In this document: positions 8,042 to 27,482 of the stretch, one piece after another
How positions within the stretch are numbered: position 1 is the stretch's first letter
Layout: each line of letters begins with the position of its first letter
From: Nostoc sp. MG11
Lineage (GTDB): Bacteria; Cyanobacteriota; Cyanobacteriia; Cyanobacteriales; Nostocaceae
Assembly: GCF_014904695.1 (NCBI RefSeq)
Contig: NZ_JACXXN010000041.1
Span: forward strand, 1-44,462
Direction: 5' to 3'
Length of the DNA: 44,462 nucleotides
Position numbers and translations under genes: made by a program
Notes under the pieces: generated by a model
Seen by the model: only the letters and a program-made list of their open reading frames with translations
What the model was told of the DNA's origin: nothing
Database searches by the model: none

Positions 8042-8884
8042 ATGTCTAACTTATCAGTGTTTGTGTTTGAATCTCAACAAGTTCGATTCGTCGGCACACC
8101 AGACAAACCAGAATGGGTTGCTGCGGATGTCTGTACGATTCTGGAAATTCAAAATGTCTCACAAGCTTTAGCTTCTTTTGATGCGGATGAGAGGGGTCTA
8201 TGTAATGTATATACCCCTGGTGATGACAATTCTCAAGGGCAAGAAATGCTTACTGTTAGCGAAGCTGGGCTTTACAGACTGATTTTCAAATCTCGCAAAC
8301 CAGTTGCAAAGCGGTTCCAACGGTGGGTCTTTCACCAAGTCCTGCCATCGCTGCGCCGTACTGGCAAGTACGAAATGCCCAACTCTGACCAACAGCAGAA
8401 CACCAAACCCACCCTTGATGAACTGGTGAATTTTGGGCAAAAAGTACTTGCGCTTACTAGGCTTAGTGCAGAACTACAGACAATCACTATCCTTCGAGGT
8501 GTACAGGCGTTGTGTCCCGAAATTTCTCCGATGACTAAAGAATTAGTAGGGGCAATTCAGGAAATCTCAGCGACTCCCGACCGACACTTGCCTCCAACTG
8601 AGCTTGGCAAAATTTACGCTGAACGTAACGGACTACCTAAGCCTGTGAGGCCAGAAGTGGTCAATCGCGTTCTGGAGTCGGCTGGTTTACAACGCAAGGA
8701 AGTTCTAATTAAAACTGATACTACAGGCAAACAGAAGCGGAAAAACATTTGGCATTTGACGAACGAAGGTAAGCAGTGGGGTACTGTAGTTTTCGATAAA
8801 GCGCGTACTCACGATAAAACTGTAGAGCATGTTCGCTGGTTGACCGATGTTTTAGAAGTGATTGACTTGAGCGTGGTAATTTAA
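8042..8884 (+). CDS. Bro-N domain antirepressor-like protein
   Basis: The 280-aa product has an N-terminal Bro-N domain at about residues 4-115: VRFVGTPDKPEWVAADVCTI, EMLTVSEAGLYRLIFKSRKP and RWVFHQVLPSLRRTGKY are the conserved blocks. Bro-N proteins bind DNA and are common in phages and mobile elements. The C-terminal part (about 175-265) with PTELGKIYAERNG and NIWHLTNEGKQWG looks like a winged-helix KilA-C/Ant-type domain. GAGG upstream supports the ATG. It closes the plus-strand run and may regulate it or a resident prophage-like function. Confidence 0.8.
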   Translation: MSNLSVFVFESQQVRFVGTPDKPEWVAADVCTILEIQNVSQALASFDADERGLCNVYTPGDDNSQGQEMLTVSEAGLYRLIFKSRKPVAKRFQRWVFHQVLPSLRRTGKYEMPNSDQQQNTKPTLDELVNFGQKVLALTRLSAELQTITILRGVQALCPEISPMTKELVGAIQEISATPDRHLPPTELGKIYAERNGLPKPVRPEVVNRVLESAGLQRKEVLIKTDTTGKQKRKNIWHLTNEGKQWGTVVFDKARTHDKTVEHVRWLTDVLEVIDLSVVI

Positions 8885-8949
8885 AATGAGCTTACTGTTT
8901 TGGAGGTTAAATGTTTGATTGGGTTTAACCTCTTTTTCCAATCAATTAA

Positions 8950-9126
8950 GGAAAGTCCGCGTTTGCGGACTACCCGTAGCTAAAACCGTATCACCTTAGT
9001 CAGTGACAATCATGTAAATACAAAATGCATTTACATGACATATTTATGTTTATAAACTTACTTCTTAAATACAAGCTTTTTCGGCAATCTATTAGACATA
9101 ACTGCTGGAATTATATCTGGAAAAAG
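8950..9126 (+). repeat. Non-coding element, copy A
   Basis: This copy begins with a perfect hairpin, AGTCCGC-gttt-GCGGACT (8954-8971). A second inverted repeat follows (TGTAAATAC...TGCATTTACA, 9013-9036). It ends with a conserved tail containing CTTAAATACAAGCTTTTTCGG and ATTAGAC...CTGGAATTATATCTG. Copies B (9134-9305) and C (13231-13420) share the layout. No gene fits here. The hairpin could act as a terminator for the Bro-N gene, but it lacks a T tract. Confidence 0.6.
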
Positions 9127-9133
9127 AACTGCA

Positions 9134-9305
9134 TAAAAAAGTCCGCAAGAGCAGACTGTGTTTGGTAGAGTATTCCGTTGGATCTACTGCCTAAATCTTC
9201 CATCTAAGTTTTTGCACATATTTATTTTTAATGATTCTATTTGAAAAAGCAAGCTTTTCGGCTTAGATAATTAGACGTAATTCCGGGAATTATATCTGCT
9301 AAAAG
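9134..9305 (+). repeat. Non-coding element, copy B
   Basis: A tandem second copy, about 186 nt after copy A. The hairpin is AGTCCGC-aaga-GCAGACT (9140-9157, one mismatch). The middle is diverged, and the tail (AAGCTTTTCGG, ATTAGACGTAA, GGGAATTATATCTG) matches A closely. It ends about 30 nt before the start of the gene at 9337, so it would lie in that gene's 5' leader if transcription starts upstream. Confidence 0.6.
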
Positions 9306-9336
9306 ACGAAAACTCAAATTCCAATCAGGAGAAACA

Positions 9337-10005
9337 ATGGATACCTTGAAAGATTTCCTTTTCTTAAAGGCGAACGTTGCCGCAGAATTCAACCCCTTTG
9401 ATGAGAGAGAGTACTTAGTCATTCAAACCTACCCGCGCGATCAAAGCTTGAGAGTTAGCAAACGAAGTTTTGATTATGAATCGGCTAAGAGCTACGAAAT
9501 TATTGTAAATATGGCTCATGACTGCTCATCTTTCGGATTAAGAATCTTTCACAACTCCAAACTGTGGACAGTAGATTTCGAGGGTAATCCTGAAAGTATT
9601 TCTCTTGAGCAGGATTGGAAGATTGCTGAAAAATACTTTCAGCCCTGTTGCACTAATGATGTTGAATGTGAAGTGAATATCTGCCAATGCAGCTATCCCT
9701 ACTTCTCTACACTAAGGGTTGATATTAGCGATACTGGCGAATACAGCAGTCATTTGCGACTTGAAACTTGTTTAGTTGATGATAATTCGAGGGAGATAGA
9801 CCACTGCCCGAATTGCAATTGTGCGTTGATTGTGGAAGAGGATGAAGACGAGGATGAGGATGATTTAGACGAGACTGAATCAACACCATTAGCTTGCATT
9901 GGTTGCGACAATTATCATGGGCAATACTATGGTGGGAATATGTTAGTCTGCGGGATTCACGCGCGAGGATGGGATGGCGAGAACTGCCCGGATTATCAAC
10001 AATAG
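9337..10005 (+). CDS. Cys-module protein with acidic linker
   Basis: The 222-aa soluble product starts at an ATG with AGGAG just upstream (9327-9331). Residues 1-150 form an unrecognised, probably beta-rich domain. CPNC (about 160) may be half of a zinc site. A run of Glu/Asp (EEDEDEDEDDLDE) leads to a C-terminal module, CIGC-x-NYHG-LVCGIHARG-C-x-DY, which matches the end of the membrane protein at 304-654. Two copies of element A/B lie in its upstream region and could control it. Function unknown; metal binding is likely. Confidence 0.7.
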   Translation: MDTLKDFLFLKANVAAEFNPFDEREYLVIQTYPRDQSLRVSKRSFDYESAKSYEIIVNMAHDCSSFGLRIFHNSKLWTVDFEGNPESISLEQDWKIAEKYFQPCCTNDVECEVNICQCSYPYFSTLRVDISDTGEYSSHLRLETCLVDDNSREIDHCPNCNCALIVEEDEDEDEDDLDETESTPLACIGCDNYHGQYYGGNMLVCGIHARGWDGENCPDYQQ

Positions 10006-10435
10006 TATGTTTGTTCCCACAAGTGTGGACAGTTGGACTACACGCGGTGGTGTAACTTCGTTATCTGCACAAATCTCTTTAACAACGCCACTTTTTATGG
10101 TTAATATCAGGTTGATAAACATCAATTTTCATTGGAACCGTAATTAAAAAGCTCATCGTTATTTCATGACAACTTCTTAGATGTGTTTGTCCTGCTGCTC
10201 AGACAAAACACGCCCTATATTTCTGCAACCGTAAAATTACTGGAAATCTTGCTTAATCAATCTAGTAACTGTATTGTTAAGAGGGGCTGATTACCAAGAA
10301 TTTTTGGGCATAAATCCTATTAGTGATCTATGCCTAATTATTGCTTTTCAAATCACAAGTTATTTGTCGATATTAACGCCCTAGTGTGCTGCTCTGTCCT
10401 GGAGTCAAGGATTTAACTCCGAATCAGCAAGCATC
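10006..10435. other. Gene-free spacer
   Basis: I find no supportable gene in this 430-nt AT-rich stretch. It should hold the promoter of the diguanylate cyclase gene, but I could not single out a convincing -35/-10 pair. A minus-strand frame at 9943-10125 overlaps the previous gene and looks accidental. Confidence 0.6.
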
Positions 10436-11449
10436 ATGACAGCCCCTATTCAAGAAAATCAATTATTAGCTCTGATCGTTGATGATGAACCATTTTTCCG
10501 CACAGTGCTGCGACTTTTCTTAGAGCAGGATGGATATCGAGTCGCGGAGGCTGAAAATGGCATAGAGGCAATAAATGTTTTTGAGCAACTCCACCCTGAC
10601 ATCATACTCCTTGATATCTCAATGCCAGATATGGATGGCGTCGAGTGTTGCCACAAGTTACATTCATCAGATCAGGGTCAGCACACTCCCATTTTGATGC
10701 TTACATCTGTTGAAGATGAACGCTCGATTAACCATGCATTTGCAGTCGGTGCAACTGACTATGTTACCAAACCCGTTCTATTGCCCATTCTGCGCCAACG
10801 TCTAAAACGCTTGATTGAACAATCTCAGTTACAACAAAAACTCCTTGCTGCAAATCAGCAGTTGCAACTTTTGGTTAATCTTGATGAGTTAACTCAACTA
10901 GCCAATCGTCGGCGATTTGAGGAATACCTCTCCCTTGAGTGGCAGCGCCAAACACGCTCACAACAGCCTTTATCCTTGATTCTGTGCGATGTTGATTTCT
11001 TTAAGTCTTACAACGATACTTATGGTCATCTCGCAGGCGATGGCACTCTAGTCAAAATTGCTAGAGCTATCAAAGATGCTCTCAAGCGGACTGCGGATTT
11101 AGTTGCCCGTTATGGCGGGGAAGAATTTGCTGTTGTTTTACCTGATACAGACGCACTTGGGGCTATTCATATTGCTAAAACAATCTGCTGTGCTGTCCGC
11201 ACATTGGCAATTCCTCATCGCAATTCACTACTTTGTTCTCATATAACTCTGAGTGCTGGGTCAACTACAGTAGTTCCTCAGCCTAATTCTGACTTCCAAC
11301 AAATAATTGCCACGGCAGATAGAGCATTGTATCAAGCAAAAGCAGCAGGACGCGATCGCTTTATCCATAGCAGCTTGGATTCGTCTTTTGCTAACCCAAC
11401 TTGCTATTTATTCGGGAGCAGTGCCCCTAAGCGTTGTGGATTTTGCTAA
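10436..11449 (+). CDS. Response regulator-diguanylate cyclase (REC-GGDEF)
   Basis: The 337-aa product has an N-terminal receiver domain (about 11-128) with acidic pocket D16/D17, phospho-acceptor D60 in ILLDISMPD and K112 in DYVTKP. A short coiled coil (about 130-150) leads to a GGDEF domain with the active-site motif GGEEF at 227-231. An allosteric RxxD motif (R218-D221) sits five residues before it. It should make cyclic di-GMP from two GTP when phosphorylated, with product inhibition. All key residues are present. No kinase gene is adjacent, so the cognate partner is likely elsewhere. Monocistronic, with long spacers on both sides. Confidence 0.93.
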   Translation: MTAPIQENQLLALIVDDEPFFRTVLRLFLEQDGYRVAEAENGIEAINVFEQLHPDIILLDISMPDMDGVECCHKLHSSDQGQHTPILMLTSVEDERSINHAFAVGATDYVTKPVLLPILRQRLKRLIEQSQLQQKLLAANQQLQLLVNLDELTQLANRRRFEEYLSLEWQRQTRSQQPLSLILCDVDFFKSYNDTYGHLAGDGTLVKIARAIKDALKRTADLVARYGGEEFAVVLPDTDALGAIHIAKTICCAVRTLAIPHRNSLLCSHITLSAGSTTVVPQPNSDFQQIIATADRALYQAKAAGRDRFIHSSLDSSFANPTCYLFGSSAPKRCGFC

Positions 11450-11595
11450 TTGTTAGCCCTTTTGAGAGATTTTTCCAGAAAAATTATTCCAGCGTCGGGC
11501 GTGCTAGTAGAAATCTCTCTTCTCTAATGAATTCTATTAAAGAAGTCTTGACTTGCGTCTATGTCCAAGTTTTTAATCTTGCTTGGACTTTTAAG

Positions 11596-12555
11596 CTATG
11601 AATATCGAATTTGTAGTATTAACCGATTTGAGGTGACAGGGGGTTTCACTTTGTGAAAGCAAGAAGGGTCTTGAACGAAGCCAAATCCTTTTTTCCCAGT
11701 AATAACTATTTGATTTTCTTTGCCGTAATAATTAAATATGGCATTGTCAGGTTGGCAATTAGAAGTCAACAACATCTGTAATGGCTTTTGCTGGTGAGAG
11801 TACCTAATCATTACGTGGGGACCAGAATCTATATCTACGTCTGTAATGTAGAAATACGCTGTCATAAAGTTATAACCAGCAATATCATAATGAAAATTAG
11901 TTGGTGGGTAACTTTTCTTGATTTCTGCTTCTGGCAGGGATGAAGCAAAACTCCAGGTTAAATGCTGCGTTATCAGCGTTGGCCAATAGGTAAGATATTT
12001 CCGAACTATTTTTAACAGCAAGGGGTCGTGGACAATTTGCGCGATAACTTGACAATCTTTAACATTATTTACCAGCCCCCGCATTACATGCCGCCCACCT
12101 TGTAAACAACCATTTTTAACAGCTTTTGCCAGAAATTCCTCGTGAAAACCAGGTTCTATACAAGGTGTTCGACTAGCAAAGTCAGAGATTTCTTTTACCA
12201 TATTAGCTGACAATTGCAGACCAAATCCGACTCCGCAATCTTGCATGGCAATTACGGTTTTTTTTACACTAATACCTGTAAATATCGATTTATCTTGGAT
12301 TTCTAAACGATTTCTGTAAACAGTGCGATTCAAACTTTGTATTTTGTTTTGGGCAAGACTGTATACTTTGCGAACACCATAAAATCTACTTAAGCGTTCT
12401 AAATACTGTCCTCCTACTCTCTTATAAAAGTCATTTTTTAGACTACGCTTTCGCCGTTTATTTTGCAGTAATAATCTTTTCCAAAAATTGGTCACGGGGG
12501 TCTTCCACGAAAAGAAATCAGCAGCCTTATTACGATATGCACGTTGTCCCCTCAA
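11596..12555 (-). CDS. Phytanoyl-CoA dioxygenase (PhyH)-like protein
   Basis: The product, up to 319 aa, has the Fe(II)/2-oxoglutarate pattern in its C-terminal half: HxD at H222/D224 (NFHYDIAGYNF), a distal histidine H301 in SCFHKV, and R311 as the likely 2-oxoglutarate ligand. DSGPHVMIRYSHQ is typical of PhyH-like enzymes. The substrate is not evident. The start is uncertain: the frame opens at a TTG right after an in-frame stop, without a ribosome site; a GTG near 12496 is another choice. The N-terminal 100 residues are very basic. It could tailor a secondary metabolite, but no pathway is present beside it. Confidence 0.7.
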   Translation of the reverse strand: MRGQRAYRNKAADFFSWKTPVTNFWKRLLLQNKRRKRSLKNDFYKRVGGQYLERLSRFYGVRKVYSLAQNKIQSLNRTVYRNRLEIQDKSIFTGISVKKTVIAMQDCGVGFGLQLSANMVKEISDFASRTPCIEPGFHEEFLAKAVKNGCLQGGRHVMRGLVNNVKDCQVIAQIVHDPLLLKIVRKYLTYWPTLITQHLTWSFASSLPEAEIKKSYPPTNFHYDIAGYNFMTAYFYITDVDIDSGPHVMIRYSHQQKPLQMLLTSNCQPDNAIFNYYGKENQIVITGKKGFGFVQDPSCFHKVKPPVTSNRLILQIRYS

Positions 12556-12672
12556 TTAATAAACTTGATTGAAGGCTGCCTGATTTTTTAGGGAACAATG
12601 CGTCATACTTTGTCTTTCCAAAAAAAAACTTAATCTTTGTAGGTACTAAACAGTATAATTATTTGCTACGGT

Positions 12673-13008
12673 TTGTCCAAAAAAGCGAAATCTACGACAA
12701 GTACTTGTAAATGCTATGCGACAACTTCAGACAAGTTTTTATTTGAAACAATATATGCCTCAGATGTCTCAGGGAGCAGAGGTAATTTCACATTTATAAA
12801 TGAAACACTACCTGGAATATTACCGTACCAAAGAATTCACAAGTATTGCCTTATCAAGGCTTTGGCATACCGAGAAGGTCGGGCAATAGTAACCTCTATG
12901 TTAGGGAAATCACACAATAAAAACGATGTTAGAATTTTTTTGGACTGTAACTTTCCAGGTCGTGATCAACTTTGCTATACAGCAAAAAGTTTGGTAACAA
13001 CATCGTAG
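12673..13008 (+). CDS. Doubtful small ORF
   Basis: A 111-aa frame opens at TTG with no ribosome site. The translation has CKCY near the start, a plausible FLFETIYASDVSG stretch and an FLDCNFPGRDQ segment, and is not obviously a shadow of another gene. No family is recognised. It may be a real short gene, a decayed gene, or chance in AT-rich DNA. Confidence 0.3.
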   Translation: MSKKAKSTTSTCKCYATTSDKFLFETIYASDVSGSRGNFTFINETLPGILPYQRIHKYCLIKALAYREGRAIVTSMLGKSHNKNDVRIFLDCNFPGRDQLCYTAKSLVTTS

Positions 13009-13230
13009 TTGCTTCATTCGCTTTTGGAAATATGCTTTAAGGTAGATAATAAATCATTCCGTGGTTGGATGCCATAAGTCACATAAAAACACTTCTTATC
13101 GAGTCAACCCAATTCACAATTGCGAATTGGTTTGACGAACCTTGCTGGGTATTAACGGCTTTTGATATTTTATTGAAGTTAGAAATCAATTAGTTTTAAA
13201 GTTAATAAGTACAAGGAATAAGAATTTCTT

Positions 13231-13420
13231 GAGAAAAAAGTCCGTTCATGGCAACGGACTTAGCAATTTTGGGAGTAATATCGTTTTCTCGCTGAGAAAT
13301 ATATAAATACATTTAATGCATTTATCTCCCATCTTCATTTTTAATAACTACTTTTTTAAATACAATCGCTTTTAATTAATTCCATTGACCAAACTTCTGG
13401 AATTAAGTCTTTTACTCTCA
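13231..13420 (+). repeat. Non-coding element, copy C
   Basis: The third copy of the A/B element. The hairpin is AGTCCGTT-catggc-AACGGACT (13239-13260). Relative to A, the seventh stem position changes from C-G to T-A, and an eighth T-A pair is gained, so pairing is kept while sequence changes. The second inverted repeat (ATAAATAC...TGCATTTAT, about 13303-13324) and the tail (TTTTTTAAATACAATCGC, CTGGAATTAAGTCT) are also kept. It lies about 470 nt upstream of the double-glycine precursor gene. Confidence 0.6.
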
Positions 13421-13889
13421 AATTTGACTTCGCAAGAAATTAGAGTAGAGTTCAGGTAGGAGTTAAGTTCTGAAATTATAATAGTTAAGTAACTGGCATT
13501 TGCTGATAAAAGCAATCATCTCCTCGTTTACAACTCACCTTACTCAAAATCTCCATTTCCTGCTTTCATAATTATTCATGCTCTCTTGAAATTATTAAAT
13601 AACCCTTGTTAGCAAAGGGTCTTTATTTTTCATTCACCTTCAGAGGTAATTTACTCTCAATCTTATGGCTTATTCAACTCTCAGCCTTAAGACTGACCTT
13701 GTTAGTTAAATTCTTTTTGTCAACTGAAGTTAGGATTAAACTAAAAATCTCAAATAGACATAACTTATTTCTTTGTGGCTATTTCAACCAACTTTTAATC
13801 TTGATTTTTCTAATTCTCTTCAATAAAAATTGCATTAACAGCTAAGGAAAACTTAACTGCTTGCAAAACTATTCTTTCAGGAGTTAGTC
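13421..13889. other. Gene-free leader upstream of the precursor peptide
   Basis: This AT-rich stretch has no convincing gene; the 79-aa hydrophobic frame at 13606-13845 has no start site and looks accidental. It contains a small hairpin (13602-13620) and presumably the promoter of the precursor gene. Confidence 0.5.
13602..13620 (+). terminator. Weak terminator-like hairpin
   Basis: ACCCTT and AAGGGT form a 6-bp stem with a 7-nt loop, followed by CTTTATTTTT. No gene clearly ends just upstream, so it may instead be an attenuator in a long leader or chance. Confidence 0.3.
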
Positions 13890-14111
13890 ATGGCTAATAT
13901 CACTCTTTCTGAATTAAAACTTACTGGTTCTCAATTGTTTCAAGATTCCGAAAGCTTTCTTAATGACCTGAGCGATACTGCTTCAATCTCTGGTGGTTAT
14001 GATAACTTCAGCGATTTTACTGGATTTGACAAGCTAATTGAAGGCTATGTCAACGTATATGCCATCGGTCATGTTACTTATTTAGCTAAATCATTTAGCT
14101 CTAACTACTAA
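13890..14111 (+). CDS. Double-glycine leader RiPP/bacteriocin precursor
   Basis: The 73-aa product starts at an ATG behind CAGGAG (13879-13884). The N-terminus ITLSELKLTGSQLFQDSESF followed by LNDLSDTASISGG matches leaders of cyanobacterial bacteriocin-type precursors, which are cut after GG by peptidase-containing ABC transporters. Cleavage after G35-G36 would release a 37-residue core rich in Tyr, Ser, Phe and Gly with no cysteine, so lanthionine or disulfide rings are not expected. No C39 peptidase/ABC exporter or modification enzyme is adjacent, so export must rely on genes elsewhere. Confidence 0.75.
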   Translation: MANITLSELKLTGSQLFQDSESFLNDLSDTASISGGYDNFSDFTGFDKLIEGYVNVYAIGHVTYLAKSFSSNY

Positions 14112-16052: not shown

Positions 16053-17336
16053 ATGACTCATTTTGGCATCATCTGTCCACCTGGCCCTGGGCATCTTAAC
16101 CCGATGACAGCTTTAGGAAGAGAATTGCAACGGCGTGGTCATCGAGTCACAATTTTAGGAATACTTGACGCTCAAGCTTATGCCGAAGCAGCTGGATTAG
16201 AGTTCTGGGCAATTGTAGAATCTGAATTCCCACTAGGCTCAATAGCAAAAATGCTAAACCAGATTGGGAAAATGAATGGGCTGGCTGCACTTCGTTACTC
16301 TCTCAATGCCTATAAAGAGTCCGCTGCTGTGATCCTCAGAGAAACTCCAACAGCGCTCCGCAGGTCTGGCATAGAAGCATTGTTGCTAGACGAAACTCAA
16401 TCAGAGGGAAGCACTGTAGCAGAGTTTTTACAAATTCCTTTTATTACAGTCAGTTGTGCTTTAACGCTTTATCCAGAGGACAGCATTCCCCCATTTTTTA
16501 CAACATGGAGTTTTAACCATGCATGGTGGGCGGTTCTACGCAATAAATTGGTAATGTCTTTACTTCGTTGGTTCGCGCAACCCATCCAGGAAGTGGTAAA
16601 CAACTATCGCCAACAATGGAACTTACCCCTTCGATCCAATTCTTACGAGTTTTACTCCAAGTTAGCTATTATTAGCCAACAACCTGCTGAGTTTGAATTT
16701 CCCCGACGAAAATTGCCGCCGCATCTACATTTCACTGGGCCATTGTATGATGATGCAGGACGTCAAGATATTGATTTTCCGTATGAAAAGTTGAATGGAA
16801 AACCCTTGATCTATGCTTCATTAGGCACTGTACAAAATCGATTACAATACGTTTTTCGCACTATTGCTCAAGCGTGCGAAGGATTGGAGTACCAGTTAGT
16901 AATTTCACTGGGAGGCGCACTTGATCCAGAAACATTGCTCAATTTACCTGGAGAACCTTTGGTTGTTAAGTATGCACCTCAGATGGAATTGCTGAGAAAA
17001 GCAAGTCTTACAATTACTCATGCAGGTATGAATACGACCTTAGAATCTTTAAGCAATGGTGTCCCCATGATTGCCATCCCCATTGCAAATGACCAGCCTG
17101 GTGTAGCAGCACGTATAGCATGGACTGGCGTTGGTGAATTTGTACCTGTGGCTAACGTAAGTGTTTCTAAACTGCGAACAGCCATAAAGCAAGTTCTGAC
17201 ACAAGACTCTTATAGGCAGAATGCACTGAGATTACAAGCAGCTATCCATCGTTCTGGAGGAGTTAATTATGCTGCTGATATCGTCGAAAAAGCTGTAGCT
17301 ACAGGAAAACCAGTTCTTTCTTCTGTCGAAGTTTAA
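16053..17336 (+). CDS. GT1-family glycosyltransferase (CrtX/macrolide type)
   Basis: The 427-aa product has a GT-B fold pattern. The N-terminus is FGIICPPGPGHLNPMTALGREL, a donor/acceptor loop seen in zeaxanthin glucosyltransferases and MGT enzymes. The C-terminal half has IYASLGTVQN, VVKYAPQMELL and the nucleotide-sugar motif THAGMNTTLESLSNGVPM with IPIANDQPGVAARI. It probably moves glucose or glucuronate from a UDP-sugar to a lipophilic acceptor such as a carotenoid or polyketide. The acceptor is not visible from context. It is 32 nt ahead of the TpsA gene; a link to exoprotein modification would be unusual for this family and is speculative. Confidence 0.85.
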   Translation: MTHFGIICPPGPGHLNPMTALGRELQRRGHRVTILGILDAQAYAEAAGLEFWAIVESEFPLGSIAKMLNQIGKMNGLAALRYSLNAYKESAAVILRETPTALRRSGIEALLLDETQSEGSTVAEFLQIPFITVSCALTLYPEDSIPPFFTTWSFNHAWWAVLRNKLVMSLLRWFAQPIQEVVNNYRQQWNLPLRSNSYEFYSKLAIISQQPAEFEFPRRKLPPHLHFTGPLYDDAGRQDIDFPYEKLNGKPLIYASLGTVQNRLQYVFRTIAQACEGLEYQLVISLGGALDPETLLNLPGEPLVVKYAPQMELLRKASLTITHAGMNTTLESLSNGVPMIAIPIANDQPGVAARIAWTGVGEFVPVANVSVSKLRTAIKQVLTQDSYRQNALRLQAAIHRSGGVNYAADIVEKAVATGKPVLSSVEV

Positions 17337-17368
17337 TAATATCACTCTTAAGTCTGAGAGACTAAACA

Positions 17369-19993
17369 ATGTTAAAAAAGAAGGCACAACGTAAAATTAA
17401 ACAGTGGATAAGTAGCTGTTGTTTTGTTAGTTTTACCACATTATATTACTTGCCATTTTCAACTCCAATTGTTGCACAGATTGTTCCCGATGCTACTCTC
17501 CGTAACAATTCTCGCGTTACAAGTCAAGAGAATACCAATATTATCAATGAGGGAACTAGAGCAGGAAATAATCTATTCCACAGTTTTAAAGACTTTTCCT
17601 TGCCTACTGGTAGTACCGCTTACTTCAACAATGGCACAAATATTCAGAACATTATCAGCAGGGTTACGGGTAAATCCATTTCAGAAATAGATGGTCTAAT
17701 TCGAGCGAATGGTACAGCTAACTTATTTTTAATTAATCCAAATGGAATTATACTTGGTCAAAATGCCCGGTTGGATATTGGTGGTTCTTTTTTAGCCAGT
17801 ACTGCTAGTGCTATTATTTTTGCTGATGGTACTTCTTTTAATGCTAAAAATCCTCAATTGGATACATTACTGAGCGTTAATGTTCCTTTGGGATTACAGT
17901 TTGGAAAAAATCCACGTTCAATTAATTTAGAAGGCACTGGTCACACTCAGTTTGTTTTTAGTAATCAAGTTGGAGCTTCTATTACCTTTATAGGGCCAGG
18001 AGAAAGCAAAAGTGGGTTACGTTTAAAACCAGGTAAAACCTTTGCCTTAATAGGAGGTGATGTCTTATTGAATGGTGGTATAGTAACAGTCCCTTCTGGT
18101 GGAATTGAAGTAGGCAGTGTTGATGAGGGTGTAGTTAGACTAATACCTAGTCTTTCAGGGTGGGGTTTCTCTTATGAAGGAGTAAACAGCCTTAAGGATA
18201 TTAGACTTGCTAGACAGTCTTTGTTAGATGCTAGCGGATTTAAGTTAGGAGATATTCATATTCAAGGCAGAAATATCAATTTCACAGACGGTTCGCTAGC
18301 TTTAATTGCAAATTCTTCTGGCTCTCTTAACCCAGGAGCGATACGTATAGATGCGTCTAATACTCTTGACTTAACAGGGATAACATCTTTTAATGCTACA
18401 TTGCCTTTCCTGTCTCCAATAAGACTTAATCGGGGCATTGTTACTGCAACTAAATTTGGTAAAGGAGCTGATATTGTTATCTTCTCTGATAAACTAATTG
18501 GTCGAGACTCTACAGTAATTAATCCTCTAACTTTTGGCTCTGGTAGTAGTGGAAATCTAATTATAAACTCTTCTAAATCTGTTGAAATCCTCGGTCAAGC
18601 AGCTAATGAAACTTCTAAAATAAGTTCTGTTTTTCAAACTGCAACCTATGGCTCTGGTCAAGCAGGTGATGTTAGTTTATCGACCGAAAAACTCTTTATT
18701 AAAGATGGAGGTGCTTTACAATCTTTAACTGCCAGTAATGGAAGAGGAGGTCATTTAAATGTAAATGCTCTTGAAACTATAAAACTTTCAGGAGGAAACA
18801 CTGGTTTCATATTATCTCCTTCTGGAACAGAAACTATTCCTTTTTTCACAGGAAGTAGTATAGCTTCGCTATCTATTTCTTCTGGCAATGCTGGCAAAAT
18901 AGATATTAAAACAAGACAATTACTTGTCGAAAATGGAGCTGGAATAGCGGCATCTGGACTACAAAGTGGTAACTCTAGCACCATAAGTATTGACGCTTCT
19001 GAATCTGTTGAGGTTATTGGAGTAAGTTCGGTTAATCCTTCTTTAAACCCCACTAGAATTACCTCTTCTGTAGGTACTGGAGATCCTTTTATAACTTATC
19101 TATATAATCTCAAGCAACCGCCAAACGCCTCATCTGGAAGCGTTTTTATTAATACAAGAAGTTTAGATGTTACAGGTGGCGCTCAAGTTGAAGTTAGAAA
19201 CAACGGTTCTGGCGATGCAGGGAAGCTTCAAATTAATGCCAATACAATCAACATTACAAACAAAGGAGGTATCACTGCAACCACTGCCGTTGGACAGGGT
19301 GGCGATATTGATATCAAGTCAAAAATCGTTCAATTAAACAACGGCAATATCTCTGCAACTGCTGGAGAGCAAGGCACTAATGGGGATGGTGGAAACATCA
19401 CCATTGATACATCTGCTTTGTTTAGCCTAGGAAATAGCGCTATCACAGCTAACGCTTTTGGAGGACGTGGAGGTAATATTCTAATCAATGCTGATGCATA
19501 CTTTTTCTCCCAAAGTGTCCAAGTTGAAGCCAGTTCCCAGTTTGGAATCAATGGACAGGTTCAAGTCAACGGACTCTCCCTTGAAAGTCGCAGCATCAAA
19601 CCAACACCAGAAGTTGTTCGAGCAATTCCTGAAATAGTCTCTGCATGTCAAGGACGATCAGGTGTAGCAGCAAGCGAATTAGTAATTAGCAGCAGAGGCG
19701 GTTTTGCATCTAGTTCCGAAGAAATGCCGTATGCCATTTTTGAGCGGCAGAATAACTCTATCTCAATCAAGAACAATGATTTAGAGCAACCTCAGCCATC
19801 AACAGTTGCACTTTCTCCAGAAATTGTAGAGGCTAACGGCTGGAAAATAGACTCGAATGGAGCACTTGTATTGACAGCAGAAGCCGATACAGCCACCCCA
19901 GTTGCTTCGTCATTGTCTGCCTCAGCCTGTCGTCAAGAACGTTATACCTCAGAAATATCACCAACCATTAAAACAGTTCATAATGATGATTAA
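17369..19993 (+). CDS. TpsA-type exoprotein (filamentous haemagglutinin N-domain)
   Basis: The 874-aa product has a basic N-terminus and hydrophobic stretch ending in TPIVAQ at about residue 37, a Sec signal peptide. The two-partner secretion domain follows (about 38-280): RNNSRV, NLFHSFKDFSL and NPNGI at 123-127 are its hallmarks. The rest is a repetitive beta-helix rich in Asn/Ser/Gly ending near residue 780, then a short tail with two cysteines. It should be exported through an outer-membrane TpsB pore, but the nearby TpsB is truncated. Its stop overlaps the start of the CHAT gene by 11 nt, so the two are translated together. Likely an adhesin or secreted scaffold. Confidence 0.9.
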   Translation: MLKKKAQRKIKQWISSCCFVSFTTLYYLPFSTPIVAQIVPDATLRNNSRVTSQENTNIINEGTRAGNNLFHSFKDFSLPTGSTAYFNNGTNIQNIISRVTGKSISEIDGLIRANGTANLFLINPNGIILGQNARLDIGGSFLASTASAIIFADGTSFNAKNPQLDTLLSVNVPLGLQFGKNPRSINLEGTGHTQFVFSNQVGASITFIGPGESKSGLRLKPGKTFALIGGDVLLNGGIVTVPSGGIEVGSVDEGVVRLIPSLSGWGFSYEGVNSLKDIRLARQSLLDASGFKLGDIHIQGRNINFTDGSLALIANSSGSLNPGAIRIDASNTLDLTGITSFNATLPFLSPIRLNRGIVTATKFGKGADIVIFSDKLIGRDSTVINPLTFGSGSSGNLIINSSKSVEILGQAANETSKISSVFQTATYGSGQAGDVSLSTEKLFIKDGGALQSLTASNGRGGHLNVNALETIKLSGGNTGFILSPSGTETIPFFTGSSIASLSISSGNAGKIDIKTRQLLVENGAGIAASGLQSGNSSTISIDASESVEVIGVSSVNPSLNPTRITSSVGTGDPFITYLYNLKQPPNASSGSVFINTRSLDVTGGAQVEVRNNGSGDAGKLQINANTINITNKGGITATTAVGQGGDIDIKSKIVQLNNGNISATAGEQGTNGDGGNITIDTSALFSLGNSAITANAFGGRGGNILINADAYFFSQSVQVEASSQFGINGQVQVNGLSLESRSIKPTPEVVRAIPEIVSACQGRSGVAASELVISSRGGFASSSEEMPYAIFERQNNSISIKNNDLEQPQPSTVALSPEIVEANGWKIDSNGALVLTAEADTATPVASSLSASACRQERYTSEISPTIKTVHNDD

Positions 19994-22499
19994 ACCACAA
20001 CATTGGCTCAGGTACTCGTTGTTAGGAATTATCGGTTTGTCAGTAGTTGCAAGCCAACCTGACGTAACCTTTGCCCAAACTTTAGACAAAAGGGCACAAC
20101 AATATAATCAGGCACAACTATTGACCCAAGAAGGTTACAAGCAATTAAATCTCGGTCAGGCGAGCAACGCTTTAGAGACTTGGAAAAAAGCTACGACTAT
20201 TTACCGTAAATTAGATGATCAAGAGGAGATTACTGGAAGTTTAATCGATGAAAGTATTGCTTTACAAGCTTTAGGCGCGAATCTTCGTGCATGTCATACG
20301 CTTGTTGAAGCATTAAAGTTAGATAAAAATGTTGGGATTTGTGCTACCAATGCGGCACGATCCACTGAATCTGTGACAAAACTTCTCTATGGGGCGATTA
20401 GTAAGCAAAAACCAATACCAGTTTACTTGCTGGGATGGCGTAATTTAGCAGAAGTCTTGCGTCAAATAGGTAAGTTAGAAGATTCCAAAATAGTTTTGAA
20501 AAAAGCGCTCTCACTTGCTAAACAAACGCCTTCATCTAATATTAGTGGTATCTTGCTATCTTTAGGTAACTCTGAGAAAGCTATTTACAAGCAAGCGCGA
20601 AACAGATATTCACAGACAGAAGAACCAGTTTTCAAAAAAGAAATTATTAGTATAATTCAGCACCAGGCACTTAACTCACTTGATATTTATCAACAGGTAA
20701 ATACTTTGTCGAATGCTCCAGCAGGAGTAAAACTACAAGCTCAATTGCACCATTTGAACTTACTATTAGATTTTCATGAATGGTTAACAGTAGAATCTAA
20801 TTCAGGTAAAACACAATTAGCTGATATTCGTACTAAAATTACTCATCAAATTCAGCCAGCAGTGGCTCTAATATTAAATAACTCTTCGGCGTTCTCTCAG
20901 TTACCAGTTAGCCATTCTATTTATGCCAAACTAAATTTTGCTAAAAGTTTGAATAAGATTGAAACCAAACAATTGCATTCAATTGCTATTGAGTATGCTG
21001 AAAAAGCATTGCAGACAGCTAGAAGTCTCAATAACCCGCGATTAAAGTCAGATAGCTTCGGCACTTTAGGCAAGTTAAAACCAGAGCAATCACAAGTGTA
21101 TCTTGAGGCAGCTTTAAGCCAAGCTCAGTTAAGCCAATCACCAGATCTTGCGTATCAATGGCAGCAGCAATTAGGGAATTTGTACAAAAAACAAGGGAAA
21201 TACGATGCAGCCCTTCAGGCATATAGTGCAGCAATTGATAACCTGACTCAAGTGCGTGATACTCTTTTGCCAAGCAATACAGATTTGCAATTCTCCTTCC
21301 AAGAAAAGGTAGAGCCTGTATATCGGGAGTATATGCGATTGCTCTTGGCATCTCCTAACCCTAATTTAAAAAGAGTAATCCAGACGAACGAACGTTTGCA
21401 AATAGCTCAGTTAGAAAACTTTCTTCAATGTGGCAAGCTTGACATCATTCCTTTAAATGAAGTTAAAAACTTGCCTAGCGCTCCAACAGTAGTTCACATT
21501 ATTGACTTGAATAACAGTGTAGAGGTAATTGTCCAGTCCCCTAATGGCTCCCTTCACCGCCATTCTGTTGACTCCAAGCTAGTTAAAGCTAGTGTCGATA
21601 ATCTACTAGAAAACTTGCAATCTTCTAGGCTAGGTTCTATTAATAAAAATTTAATTATTTCGCCTTCTCAATCACTTTATAACTTGCTAATTGCACCCAT
21701 CAAGACATACCTACCCCCATCAGGAACGTTAGTGTTAACTTTAGATACATCTTTCCAAAGCTTGCCAATAGGTTTGCTTCATGACAGCAAAGATTATTTA
21801 CTCCAGCACTACAGCATTGCTCAAACTTTAGGTTCCAGGATTAGACCACCTAAATTTTTACCCAAGGAACAGTTAAGGGCTTTAATTGCTGGACTCTCTG
21901 AAGTTAGTCCCAGCTTTTACGCTCTAAATGCCCCCGAAGGCTTGAAAGCGTTGCTAGGAGTAGAAGAGGAGGTAGAAGATGTTAAAAAACAAACTACTTC
22001 TTCAAAAGTCTTGCTAAATGATAAGTTTACCAGTCAGGCACTTGAGCAACAATTAAGCAGCTCTGATTTTTCCGTTGTTCATCTAACTACTCATGCTCAA
22101 TTTAGTTCTGACCCTCAGAGAACAATGTTTTTTGCTTGGAACAAACCAATTAGTGTATTAGAGTTTGATAGCTTGCTAAAATTAAACGCTCAAGCCAATG
22201 AAGGAGGAATTGAGCTATTAGTTTTAAGTGCCTGTCAAACTGCCAAGGGTAATAAGAAATCAGCATTAGGAATAGCTGGTGTGGCAGCACAAGCAGGTGC
22301 CAGAAGTACAGTGGCAACTTTATGGAAGGTAGATGCTGACTCTACTGCTTTACTCATGGAAGATTTTTACAAGAACTTGAAAAATGGTATTCCCAAAGCA
22401 GAGGCATTGCGTAAAGCACAATTAAATTTAATGTCAAATTCTAAGTACAGCCACCCTTATTTTTGGTCTTCTTTTTTGCTCGTTGGCGGATGGTTGTGA
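19983..22499 (+). CDS. Exported TPR-CHAT (caspase-like) protease
   Basis: I start at ATG 19983 (838 aa); the frame reaches back to 19902 inside TpsA. The N-terminus has a signal peptide ending near TFAQ. TPR-like helices span about 40-480. The C-terminal CHAT domain (about 560-838) has catalytic His704 in LTTHAQF and Cys751 in LSACQTAKG, then GARSTVATLWKVD and a closing HPYFWSSFLLVGGW. CHAT proteins are clan CD cysteine peptidases. Secretion of a CHAT protein beside TpsA is common in filamentous cyanobacteria. It may process the exoprotein or a surface target. Both catalytic residues are intact. Confidence 0.88.
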   Translation: MMIKPQHWLRYSLLGIIGLSVVASQPDVTFAQTLDKRAQQYNQAQLLTQEGYKQLNLGQASNALETWKKATTIYRKLDDQEEITGSLIDESIALQALGANLRACHTLVEALKLDKNVGICATNAARSTESVTKLLYGAISKQKPIPVYLLGWRNLAEVLRQIGKLEDSKIVLKKALSLAKQTPSSNISGILLSLGNSEKAIYKQARNRYSQTEEPVFKKEIISIIQHQALNSLDIYQQVNTLSNAPAGVKLQAQLHHLNLLLDFHEWLTVESNSGKTQLADIRTKITHQIQPAVALILNNSSAFSQLPVSHSIYAKLNFAKSLNKIETKQLHSIAIEYAEKALQTARSLNNPRLKSDSFGTLGKLKPEQSQVYLEAALSQAQLSQSPDLAYQWQQQLGNLYKKQGKYDAALQAYSAAIDNLTQVRDTLLPSNTDLQFSFQEKVEPVYREYMRLLLASPNPNLKRVIQTNERLQIAQLENFLQCGKLDIIPLNEVKNLPSAPTVVHIIDLNNSVEVIVQSPNGSLHRHSVDSKLVKASVDNLLENLQSSRLGSINKNLIISPSQSLYNLLIAPIKTYLPPSGTLVLTLDTSFQSLPIGLLHDSKDYLLQHYSIAQTLGSRIRPPKFLPKEQLRALIAGLSEVSPSFYALNAPEGLKALLGVEEEVEDVKKQTTSSKVLLNDKFTSQALEQQLSSSDFSVVHLTTHAQFSSDPQRTMFFAWNKPISVLEFDSLLKLNAQANEGGIELLVLSACQTAKGNKKSALGIAGVAAQAGARSTVATLWKVDADSTALLMEDFYKNLKNGIPKAEALRKAQLNLMSNSKYSHPYFWSSFLLVGGWL

Positions 22500-25970: not shown

Positions 25971-27482
25971 ATGGATTTTGGTGACTTACGGGAACTGAAA
26001 GTTTCAGACCCTTCTTTTTCATCCATCATCACAACAGTAGAAGAACTTCCAGGGCAAAGATTTTCAGAAACAATTACTTTTGAAGAAGCTTTGATAGCAG
26101 TGAATGATTTAGTGTTTGCCAAGCTGGCTAGACATCTATCTGAAGCTGAGATCATTGTCATGAAAGGAGCCTGGAATAATCGTGAGTTCGTAGAGATAGC
26201 AGAAAACTCACCTTACAGCGTTAATTACTTGCAGCGACGTTTAGCTCCTCAGTTGTGGGATTTGCTCTCCGAAATAATTGGAGATGGTCAACGAGTGGGA
26301 AAAAGGAAACTTCGGTTTTTTTTGGAACAAGTAGCTAAAAAGTATCCTGCTCAGTCTACTTCAAATGGAGAGCAAGTCCCTTTTGACACTGGCTTTATGC
26401 AGAACATTAAGGGTCAACCGCCTAATGTATCTACTTTTTATGGACGTACACAGGAACTGGCTCATTTAAAAGAATTAATAGTAAAGCAGCGCTGCATATC
26501 ACTAGTAGGTGTGGCAGGAATTGGAAAAAGTGCATTAGCGGCAAAACTATTAGCAGAACTTAGTATAGAATCTCAACCTAGATTTGATTGTTTAATTTGG
26601 AAATCAGTTAGTCATGCACCACGAGTTCAAGACTTAGTAGCAGATTTGATTGAGTTAATTGATCCCTTAGAGCCATCCTCAAATTTACCTGAATATACGC
26701 AAGCAATGATTTCGGTGTTGGTGAAGCAACTGCAATCACGTAGATATTTGCTCGTATTAGATGAGACTGACGCATTGTTTCAAAGAAATAAATTGGAGCA
26801 GAGGCTAGAGTACAAAATACTCTTTCGTCGATTAGTGGAGGAGCAACACCAAAGCTGCTTACTTCTAACCAATCGAATCTTCCCTGAAGAGTTCAGTACT
26901 TTAATAAAGGCTAAACGTCCAATTGAGTATCTTAGAATTGAAGGTTTAGATTCAGAAGCAGCAATGCAGCTTTTATTGGCTAAAGGACTAACGAATAAAG
27001 AGAAGTGTCAAAAATTAATCCATACCTATTGTGGCAATCCTTTGGAATTAGAGACAGTAGTGGAGAAAATTCACCACTACTTCGCTAGTAGTACTGAAAA
27101 ATTTTTCAAAAAGTATACGACGTTTATTAGCAGCGAGTTTCAAGCAATGCTTGACGAAATGTTTGGTGAAATATTGAGTGAAACTCAGAGGCAGATCATG
27201 ATTTATTTGGCAGAGAAAATAGCTTTCAATTTAAAACCAGTTAGTTTTGAACAACTATTAAGTGATATAAGTCAAAGGCAGAAAACACCTGTATCTACTT
27301 CAGAGGTAATTAAAGCATTGGAACAACTGGAAAGACAGTCATTAATTGAAAGTAGTAAAGACTTAGTTACCAAAGAAATTAGTTTTACTCTACAACCAGT
27401 GATTAAAAAATATATTACAACAGATCCGATGGGGCTAGTCCATACATCTGATACTTCATCAGAATTAGCGATCGCATCTTAA
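25971..27482 (+). CDS. Short NB-ARC STAND ATPase with N-terminal vMAP-type HTH
   Basis: The 503-aa product has an N-terminal helical domain (about 35-120): FEEALIAVNDLVFAKLARHL and IVMKGAWNNREFVEIAE. This resembles the HTH placed at the front of many cyanobacterial NB-ARC proteins. FYGRTQELAHLKELI opens the NB-ARC domain; Walker A is GVAGIGKS at 180-187 and Walker B LLVLDE at 260-265. A winged-helix part (about 390-490) follows, and then the protein ends. There is no WD40/TPR sensor and no obvious effector. STAND proteins are ligand-activated switches; here sensing or output may come from a partner. Confidence 0.85.
   Translation: MDFGDLRELKVSDPSFSSIITTVEELPGQRFSETITFEEALIAVNDLVFAKLARHLSEAEIIVMKGAWNNREFVEIAENSPYSVNYLQRRLAPQLWDLLSEIIGDGQRVGKRKLRFFLEQVAKKYPAQSTSNGEQVPFDTGFMQNIKGQPPNVSTFYGRTQELAHLKELIVKQRCISLVGVAGIGKSALAAKLLAELSIESQPRFDCLIWKSVSHAPRVQDLVADLIELIDPLEPSSNLPEYTQAMISVLVKQLQSRRYLLVLDETDALFQRNKLEQRLEYKILFRRLVEEQHQSCLLLTNRIFPEEFSTLIKAKRPIEYLRIEGLDSEAAMQLLLAKGLTNKEKCQKLIHTYCGNPLELETVVEKIHHYFASSTEKFFKKYTTFISSEFQAMLDEMFGEILSETQRQIMIYLAEKIAFNLKPVSFEQLLSDISQRQKTPVSTSEVIKALEQLERQSLIESSKDLVTKEISFTLQPVIKKYITTDPMGLVHTSDTSSELAIAS

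Follow-up and report, generated by a model that had tools for sequence, protein, structure and literature searches.

Qrr, OmrA/OmrB and LhrC are families of sibling, multicopy small RNAs (sRNAs) that act in trans, and they offer the nearest parallel to three elements, A, B and C, which a first-pass annotation had marked in Nostoc sp. MG11. The elements are present at 8950-9126, 9134-9305 and 13231-13420 of the DNA analysed here (contig NZ_JACXXN010000041.1, positions 1 to 44,462, assembly GCF_014904695.1; this whole stretch of 44,462 nt is called the window), and each of them is best explained as an sRNA gene on the minus strand. As with Qrr, OmrA/OmrB and LhrC, several related sRNAs occur per genome, apparently under one regulator, and each ends in an intrinsic terminator. 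Unlike those families, they have other sequences; their types (A, B and C, and the relatives D and E introduced below) share operator, promoter and terminator while their middles are unlike, and the apparent regulon includes genes for peptides resembling ribosomally synthesized and post-translationally modified peptides (RiPPs).

Closer to the host, sRNAs of Nostoc sp. PCC 7120 are given with their lengths in PMC4734099, whose text counts 327 sRNA entries in a supplementary table. Two of its sRNAs are 4547237r, which is 51 nt long and rises with culture density, and NsiR8, which requires HetR (PMC4734099). These two and the sRNAs predicted here are all short, terminator-ended intergenic RNAs. 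We do not equate them, as no NsiR8-like motif was seen beside D. A HetR-type motif is TCCGGA, and none was found beside D in seven stretches representing six distinct loci. On the peptide side, the secreted GG-motif EbfG proteins of Synechococcus elongatus are likewise small and carry double-glycine leaders, a likeness by description alone; the opening of the abstract mentions no sRNA family and no operator of this kind (PMC4997328). No earlier description of the elements turned up in the literature searched by titles and abstract openings, and the supplementary table of PMC4734099 may list D or E by coordinate. Against Rfam, neither the window nor five loci with D, E or operator sites reached a gathering threshold; the best sub-threshold match in 8880-9340 was MCS4, at 22 bits where 56 are needed.

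The similarity of A, B and C is far above chance: A and C share 71% over 119 nt (E-value 5e-13), and A and B 73% over 92 nt (E-value 5e-10), both in a small database. All three are laid out alike: a 25-bp palindrome (AGAYATAA-N9-TTATGTCT, in a degenerate form in C) is followed after 19-20 bp by a sigma-70-like promoter, then by a predicted transcript of about 85-100 nt that ends in an intrinsic terminator. The -35 and -10-like boxes are conserved at constant spacing; a generic consensus promoter scan of the B and C regions did not flag them. The hairpin noted earlier is there, with AGTCCGC/GCGGACT in A, AGTCCGTT/AACGGACT in C and one plus-strand mismatch in B, and the internal inverted repeat is, as had been said, confined to A and C. 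What had been called a 5' hairpin is nevertheless the 3' terminator, and the supposed conserved 3' tail is the palindromic operator, as the annotation had read the elements on the plus strand whereas promoter, U-tract and wobble pairs place the RNA on the minus strand.

On the strand that is transcribed, an intrinsic terminator shows a GC-rich hairpin with a U-run behind it, and this is what a terminator search returns for B (AGTCTGC-TCTT-GCGGACT, then the T-run TTTTTATG) and C (AAGTCCGTT...AACGGACTT, then TTTTCTC) on the minus strand; in A the stem is followed by the weaker tail TTTCCTTAATT. In the genome of the strain, contig C171 carries the A-B pair again and contig C216 a single, diverged copy, D (about 72 nt). 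D was found at 48 loci by a pattern scan of named genomes that fixed 23 transcript bases, so that conservation at those bases is in part a product of the scan; the palindrome, the promoter and the terminator lay outside the selection. At least five T within 10 bases past the stem occur on the RNA strand in 48/48 of these loci and on the opposite strand in 3/48. What is a C.A mismatch of B on the plus strand reads as a U.G wobble in the minus-strand RNA; of the terminator cells of the D set, 19 are G.U in the RNA and would be A.C mismatches in the opposite reading. Folding points the same way: relative to shuffles, the whole elements give plus-strand z-scores of -2.2 (A), -0.7 (B) and -3.0 (C), and the minus-strand transcripts of A, C and D reach -5.75, -5.35 and -3.97. 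Because of the position of the T-run, the wobble pairs and the stronger minus-strand folds, we assign the RNA to the minus strand.

This bears directly on the proposal that B and C are structured, riboswitch-like leaders on the plus strand, serving the gene at 9337 and the precursor peptide gene. B does end some 30 bp ahead of the start of the 9337 gene, and the peptide gene has C on its upstream side. A cis-leader would have to sit on the same strand directly upstream of the frame that it regulates, while the window elements have their terminator, promoter and wobble pairs on the minus strand, and their transcription runs away from both genes. On the plus strand no T-run follows the hairpin, the stem of B is mismatched and the folds are weaker. 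Moreover, about 470 bp separate the end of C from the peptide gene, which has a promoter-like site of its own, and at the 30 syntenic D loci described below the nearest mapped gene is upstream of D. We therefore hold the leader proposal to be very unlikely.

Covariation is seen in the terminator of D. Its helix is 99.7% paired in 43 distinct sequences, and both-side changes occur at 4/8 pairs (UA/AU, UA/CG and, twice, CG/UA; 33 cells), which supports the earlier suggestion of an RNA function with compensatory change. In 500 shuffles the covariation score was reached by 0/500 and the number of such pairs by 9/500, with shuffles that, to the detriment of the argument, leave kinship among the sequences uncontrolled. 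The palindrome is present at 48/48 loci, and its end is 20 bp from the TTG of the -35 box in 47/48 (the order of the parts was read by eye). One and the same gene precedes D on the same strand in 30/48 loci, at a distance of 71-532 bp; its protein in the MG11 genome matches CobJ/CbiH (TIGR01466, 319 bits). For the other 18 loci, two stretches were 902 and 1042 bp long and 16 were without cobJ in the DNA examined. A further short terminator-ended RNA gene (GGTCAGG...CCCC...GGGG, then a T-run) is divergent from D within 725 bp in 27/48 loci, e.g. L093 and L104, by a pattern search in which three misses had less than 725 bp on that side or a short stretch; judged by eye, most of these RNA genes have a related palindrome in front of them. 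This divergent RNA, compared by length and setting, resembles 4547237r in length only (about 51 nt; PMC4734099).

A lack of further copies, or stem changes that disrupt pairing as often as they preserve it, would have spoken against the elements; copies are plentiful, and the D terminator helix keeps its pairing. A search with a D model (R1, trained on the 48 named sequences with the window copies excluded) gave one match of at least 100 bits in each of 5/5 genomes of the genus. Among 145 genomes of the family, drawn evenly from a larger group, R1 matched 78/145 at an E-value of at most 0.01, 70 of these with at least 70 bits (strong D). A second type, E, with the core CUUGGUGACAACUUAACCUUAUCCAAU, was matched by its own model (R3) at an E-value of at most 0.001 in 67/145 genomes and with at least 80 bits (strong E) in 63/145. 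With these cut-offs all 63 genomes with strong E are among the 70 with strong D, which leaves 7 with D alone and 75 without either; the genomes are interrelated, so the Fisher value for this co-occurrence is no independent test. R3 also weakly matches D loci (G005:C19, G140:C1, G154:C45, G175:C1), and this speaks for D and E being homologous; a conserved stretch is present in the middle part of both. Nothing matched in the plasmid or phage collections.

The first-pass annotation had also considered a mobile element, and a repeat of the kind of a miniature inverted-repeat transposable element without regulatory role would account for the dispersed copies, for the presence of A and B, and of C, in duplicated segments, and for the four A-B pairs in genome G001. 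Short inverted ends, TTGAGA (13229-13234) and TCTCAA (13416-13421), are peculiar to C; at the C-type copies on contigs C171 and C190 they are absent. Terminal repeats and target duplications were sought by eye only. Duplication of the A/B and C segments stands, but for the family taken together mobility is unlikely, given the synteny of D in 30/48 loci, the single strong copy in 5/5 genomes of the genus, the fixed spacing of operator and promoter, and the operator's occurrence before protein genes that have no RNA part. As an account of the elements we find it quite improbable.

The operator and promoter indeed reach beyond the sRNAs. With at most one mismatch, the palindrome AGANATAA-N9-TTATNTCT occurs at 24 places in the MG11 genome against 3 for its reversed control; an earlier pattern of the wrong length, with 6 places against 3 and thus little excess, was dropped. 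The strict pattern AGACATAA-N9-TTATGTCT-N20-TTGA was found at 32 places in 31/145 family genomes, and its reversed control at 0. Downstream of 30 inspected places we read, by eye and taking whichever recognisable feature came first (at times several hundred bp away), 14 sRNAs, 9 small-peptide genes, 4 kinase genes, 2 glycosyltransferase genes and 1 nblA-like gene. The 14 sRNA loci have a GTCCGC terminator at +131 to +137. The nine peptide genes are of the double-glycine kind, though at L202 and L203 it is the second peptide alone that has GG, the first having GSG. The one nblA-like product tested matches NblA (PF04485, E-value 1.2e-14), and a kinase from contig C99 (L168, 1328-2500) matches LxmK (NF038156) with 102 bits, below the cutoff of 315. 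A sequence-only model of palindrome and promoter (R2, 25 training sequences, window copies included) gave, under stricter filters, 12 matches in the MG11 genome at an E-value of at most 1e-4, seven of which R2 had been trained on. Five are new: two belong to C-type sRNAs, one to an E-type sRNA and one to a double-glycine peptide gene, and the last precedes a glycosyltransferase gene. Laxer filters add a thirteenth (C64:21433, E-value 1.0e-4), ahead of an open reading frame (ORF) of 279 amino acids. At the same E-value R2 matched 17 of the 146 genomes of a phylum sample (109, not itemised, were without match), all Nostocaceae and some of them suppliers of training sequences. Peptide or kinase operator sites occur in genomes G007, G051, G053 and G059, which are not among the R1 matches for D, and the operator is therefore wider than the sRNAs.

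Some further genes follow the operator. nblA-like genes are found at L141, L142, L153 and L158, all but one assessed by eye only, and genes for LxmK-like kinases (class V lanthipeptide type) at L168, L184, L185, L190 and L204, of which L168 alone was tested. A lone gene of the response-regulator kind, at L166 (1720-2127), has a palindrome with one mismatch and the matching promoter spacing.

Altogether we consider it probable, and hold with good confidence, that A, B and C are minus-strand genes of sibling sRNAs found in part of the Nostocaceae and co-activated with secreted-peptide genes by a candidate activator. What the DNA itself supports is a repeated architecture, the strand, covariation in the D terminator, the distribution and a common operator-promoter; transcription, activation rather than repression, and base-pairing in trans are predicted from it. 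In the mechanism that we propose, a putative activator would bind the palindrome about 55-80 bp upstream of the start; the 19-20 bp to the -35 box would put the palindrome's centre near -68, a class-I-like activator position. It would switch on the sRNAs together with double-glycine-leader peptide genes and their modification genes. Each sRNA would be a reused chassis (operator, promoter, GUCCGC terminator) around a type-specific middle, and in D, A and E this middle has a conserved, probably unpaired stretch that may well pair with target mRNAs. The U-run and spacing counts, the tight synteny and the C171 counterpart of B, which R1 finds with 34.1 bits, strengthen the case for sibling sRNAs.

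Alternatively, the transcripts could be by-products of a regulated promoter and an insulating terminator, the RNA itself having no function. The middles of B and C, unlike each other and unlike D, would agree with this. The middle of E is, though, among its best conserved parts across genera, that of D is conserved too (partly imposed by the search pattern), and A and C are strongly structured, so that we regard functionless RNA as improbable. That the transcripts encode very short proteins has still less to recommend it: chance frames exist, e.g. one of 37 amino acids in one D copy, but single-base length differences in D middles shift the frame (L070, L095, L103, L112, L117), and in several E members a TAG closes the matching frame, as seen by eye. 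We give this idea hardly any credence.

Several observations weigh against sibling sRNAs under a common activator. R1 matches A at 8946-9046 on the minus strand with 26.5 bits and an E-value of 8e-4 in 84 kb, which becomes just 0.08 over the whole genome, and it matches neither window B nor window C; because it misses C, the kinship of C rests on operator, promoter and terminator. The minus-strand fold of B is weak (z-score -1.45). In D, hairpin 1 has 5/7 pairs invariant, no covariation and a 3' arm fixed by the search pattern, and its seventh and last pair is unformed in 23/43 sequences; in the eight A-type sequences, both-side changes affect two pairs of hairpin 1, by a single cell each. The operator-promoter of the window peptide is weak (R2 E-value 0.64), and some R2 matches look like chance, among them G003:C52:622 (E-value 7.4e-5), which is without the right palindrome arm. 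The genome-wide E-value of A and the weak R2 match count against individual points. Inspection of 14 operator loci by eye revealed no neighbouring regulator gene. Of 60 complementarity tests, in which A, B, C, C3, D and E were each set against 10 mRNAs either encoded nearby or co-regulated, one had a z-score below -2; this pairing, of B with the 8042 gene (z-score -2.9, mononucleotide shuffles), was treated as chance.

If the sRNA genes are real, heterocyst-forming cyanobacteria gain two widely conserved, homologous sRNA families without Rfam match, and a defined operator links sRNAs to secreted-peptide and nblA-like genes in a regulon testable via the palindrome. We would go further just tentatively, since we think it doubtful as a whole, to a communication or stress circuit specific to Nostocaceae, in which one activator drives double-glycine (lanthipeptide-like) peptides and sibling sRNAs with exchangeable guide parts, the operator being wider or older on peptide genes and the sRNAs added in a sub-group.

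Proposed features of the window and the basis on which each was placed
Feature	Position	Strand	Basis
Operator palindrome of A (AGATATAATTCCAGCAGTTATGTCT)	9094..9118	-	Exact palindrome pattern match; alignment
Sigma-70-like promoter of A: -35 TTGTAT (9074-9069), -10-like AACATA (about 9050-9045)	9045..9074	-	Aligned with 24 other promoters; inferred position
sRNA A: two hairpins, terminator 8971-8954, T-rich tail	8946..9042	-	R1 match; fold z-score; pair counts on 8 A-type sequences
Operator palindrome of B (AGATATAATTCCCGGAATTACGTCT)	9273..9297	-	Pattern match with 1 mismatch; alignment
Promoter of B: -35 TTGCTT (9252-9247), 17 nt, -10 AAAAAT (9229-9224)	9224..9252	-	Alignment; inferred
sRNA B: terminator stem 9157-9140, then T6	9134..9221	-	Minus-strand terminator; weak fold
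Operator palindrome of C, degenerate right arm (AGACTTAATTCCAGAAGTTTGGTCA)	13386..13410	-	R2 match 13410-13334 minus, E-value 1.7e-9, C in training set
Promoter of C: -35 TTGTAT (13365-13360), 17 nt, -10 AAAAAT (13342-13337)	13337..13365	-	Alignment; inferred
sRNA C: terminator 13261-13238, T-run	13232..13334	-	Minus-strand terminator; fold z-score -5.35; copies C171:37224 and C190:17741
Degenerate operator (AGACATAACTTATTTCTTTGTGGCT, 13756-13780), 20 bp, -35 TTGATT (13801-13806), -10-like CAATAAAAAT (13821-13830)	13756..13830	+	R2, E-value 0.64
Precursor peptide, 73 amino acids, double-glycine leader (MANITLSELKLTGSQLFQDSESFLNDLSDTASISGG...)	13890..14111	+	ORF and paralogs; leader recognised by eye

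Among the A-type sequences, hairpin 2 is 91.7% paired and the terminator is without both-side change. The precursor peptide has no match in Pfam or NCBIfam. At its paralogs, the corresponding sites (C171:36796-36870 and C190:17313-17387) depart from the palindrome by no more than one mismatch, and in the window, on C171 and on C190 alike, the C-type sRNA reads away from the peptide gene, with operators about 350 bp apart. A, B and the 9337 gene form a cassette that recurs on C171 and in G001. In the window (8885-11449) and at L018 (G000:C171), the succession of A-B, the 9337 gene and a response-regulator/GGDEF gene is repeated, the C171 copy of the A-B cassette carrying an additional ORF in between. 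Elsewhere in the window, an overlapping AT-rich palindrome (12780-12813) lies within an ORF of 111 amino acids, a glycosyltransferase, a TPS-secretion-domain protein and a CHAT/TPR protein are encoded in succession (16053-22499), and a STAND protein of the NB-ARC/NACHT type is encoded at 25971-27482.

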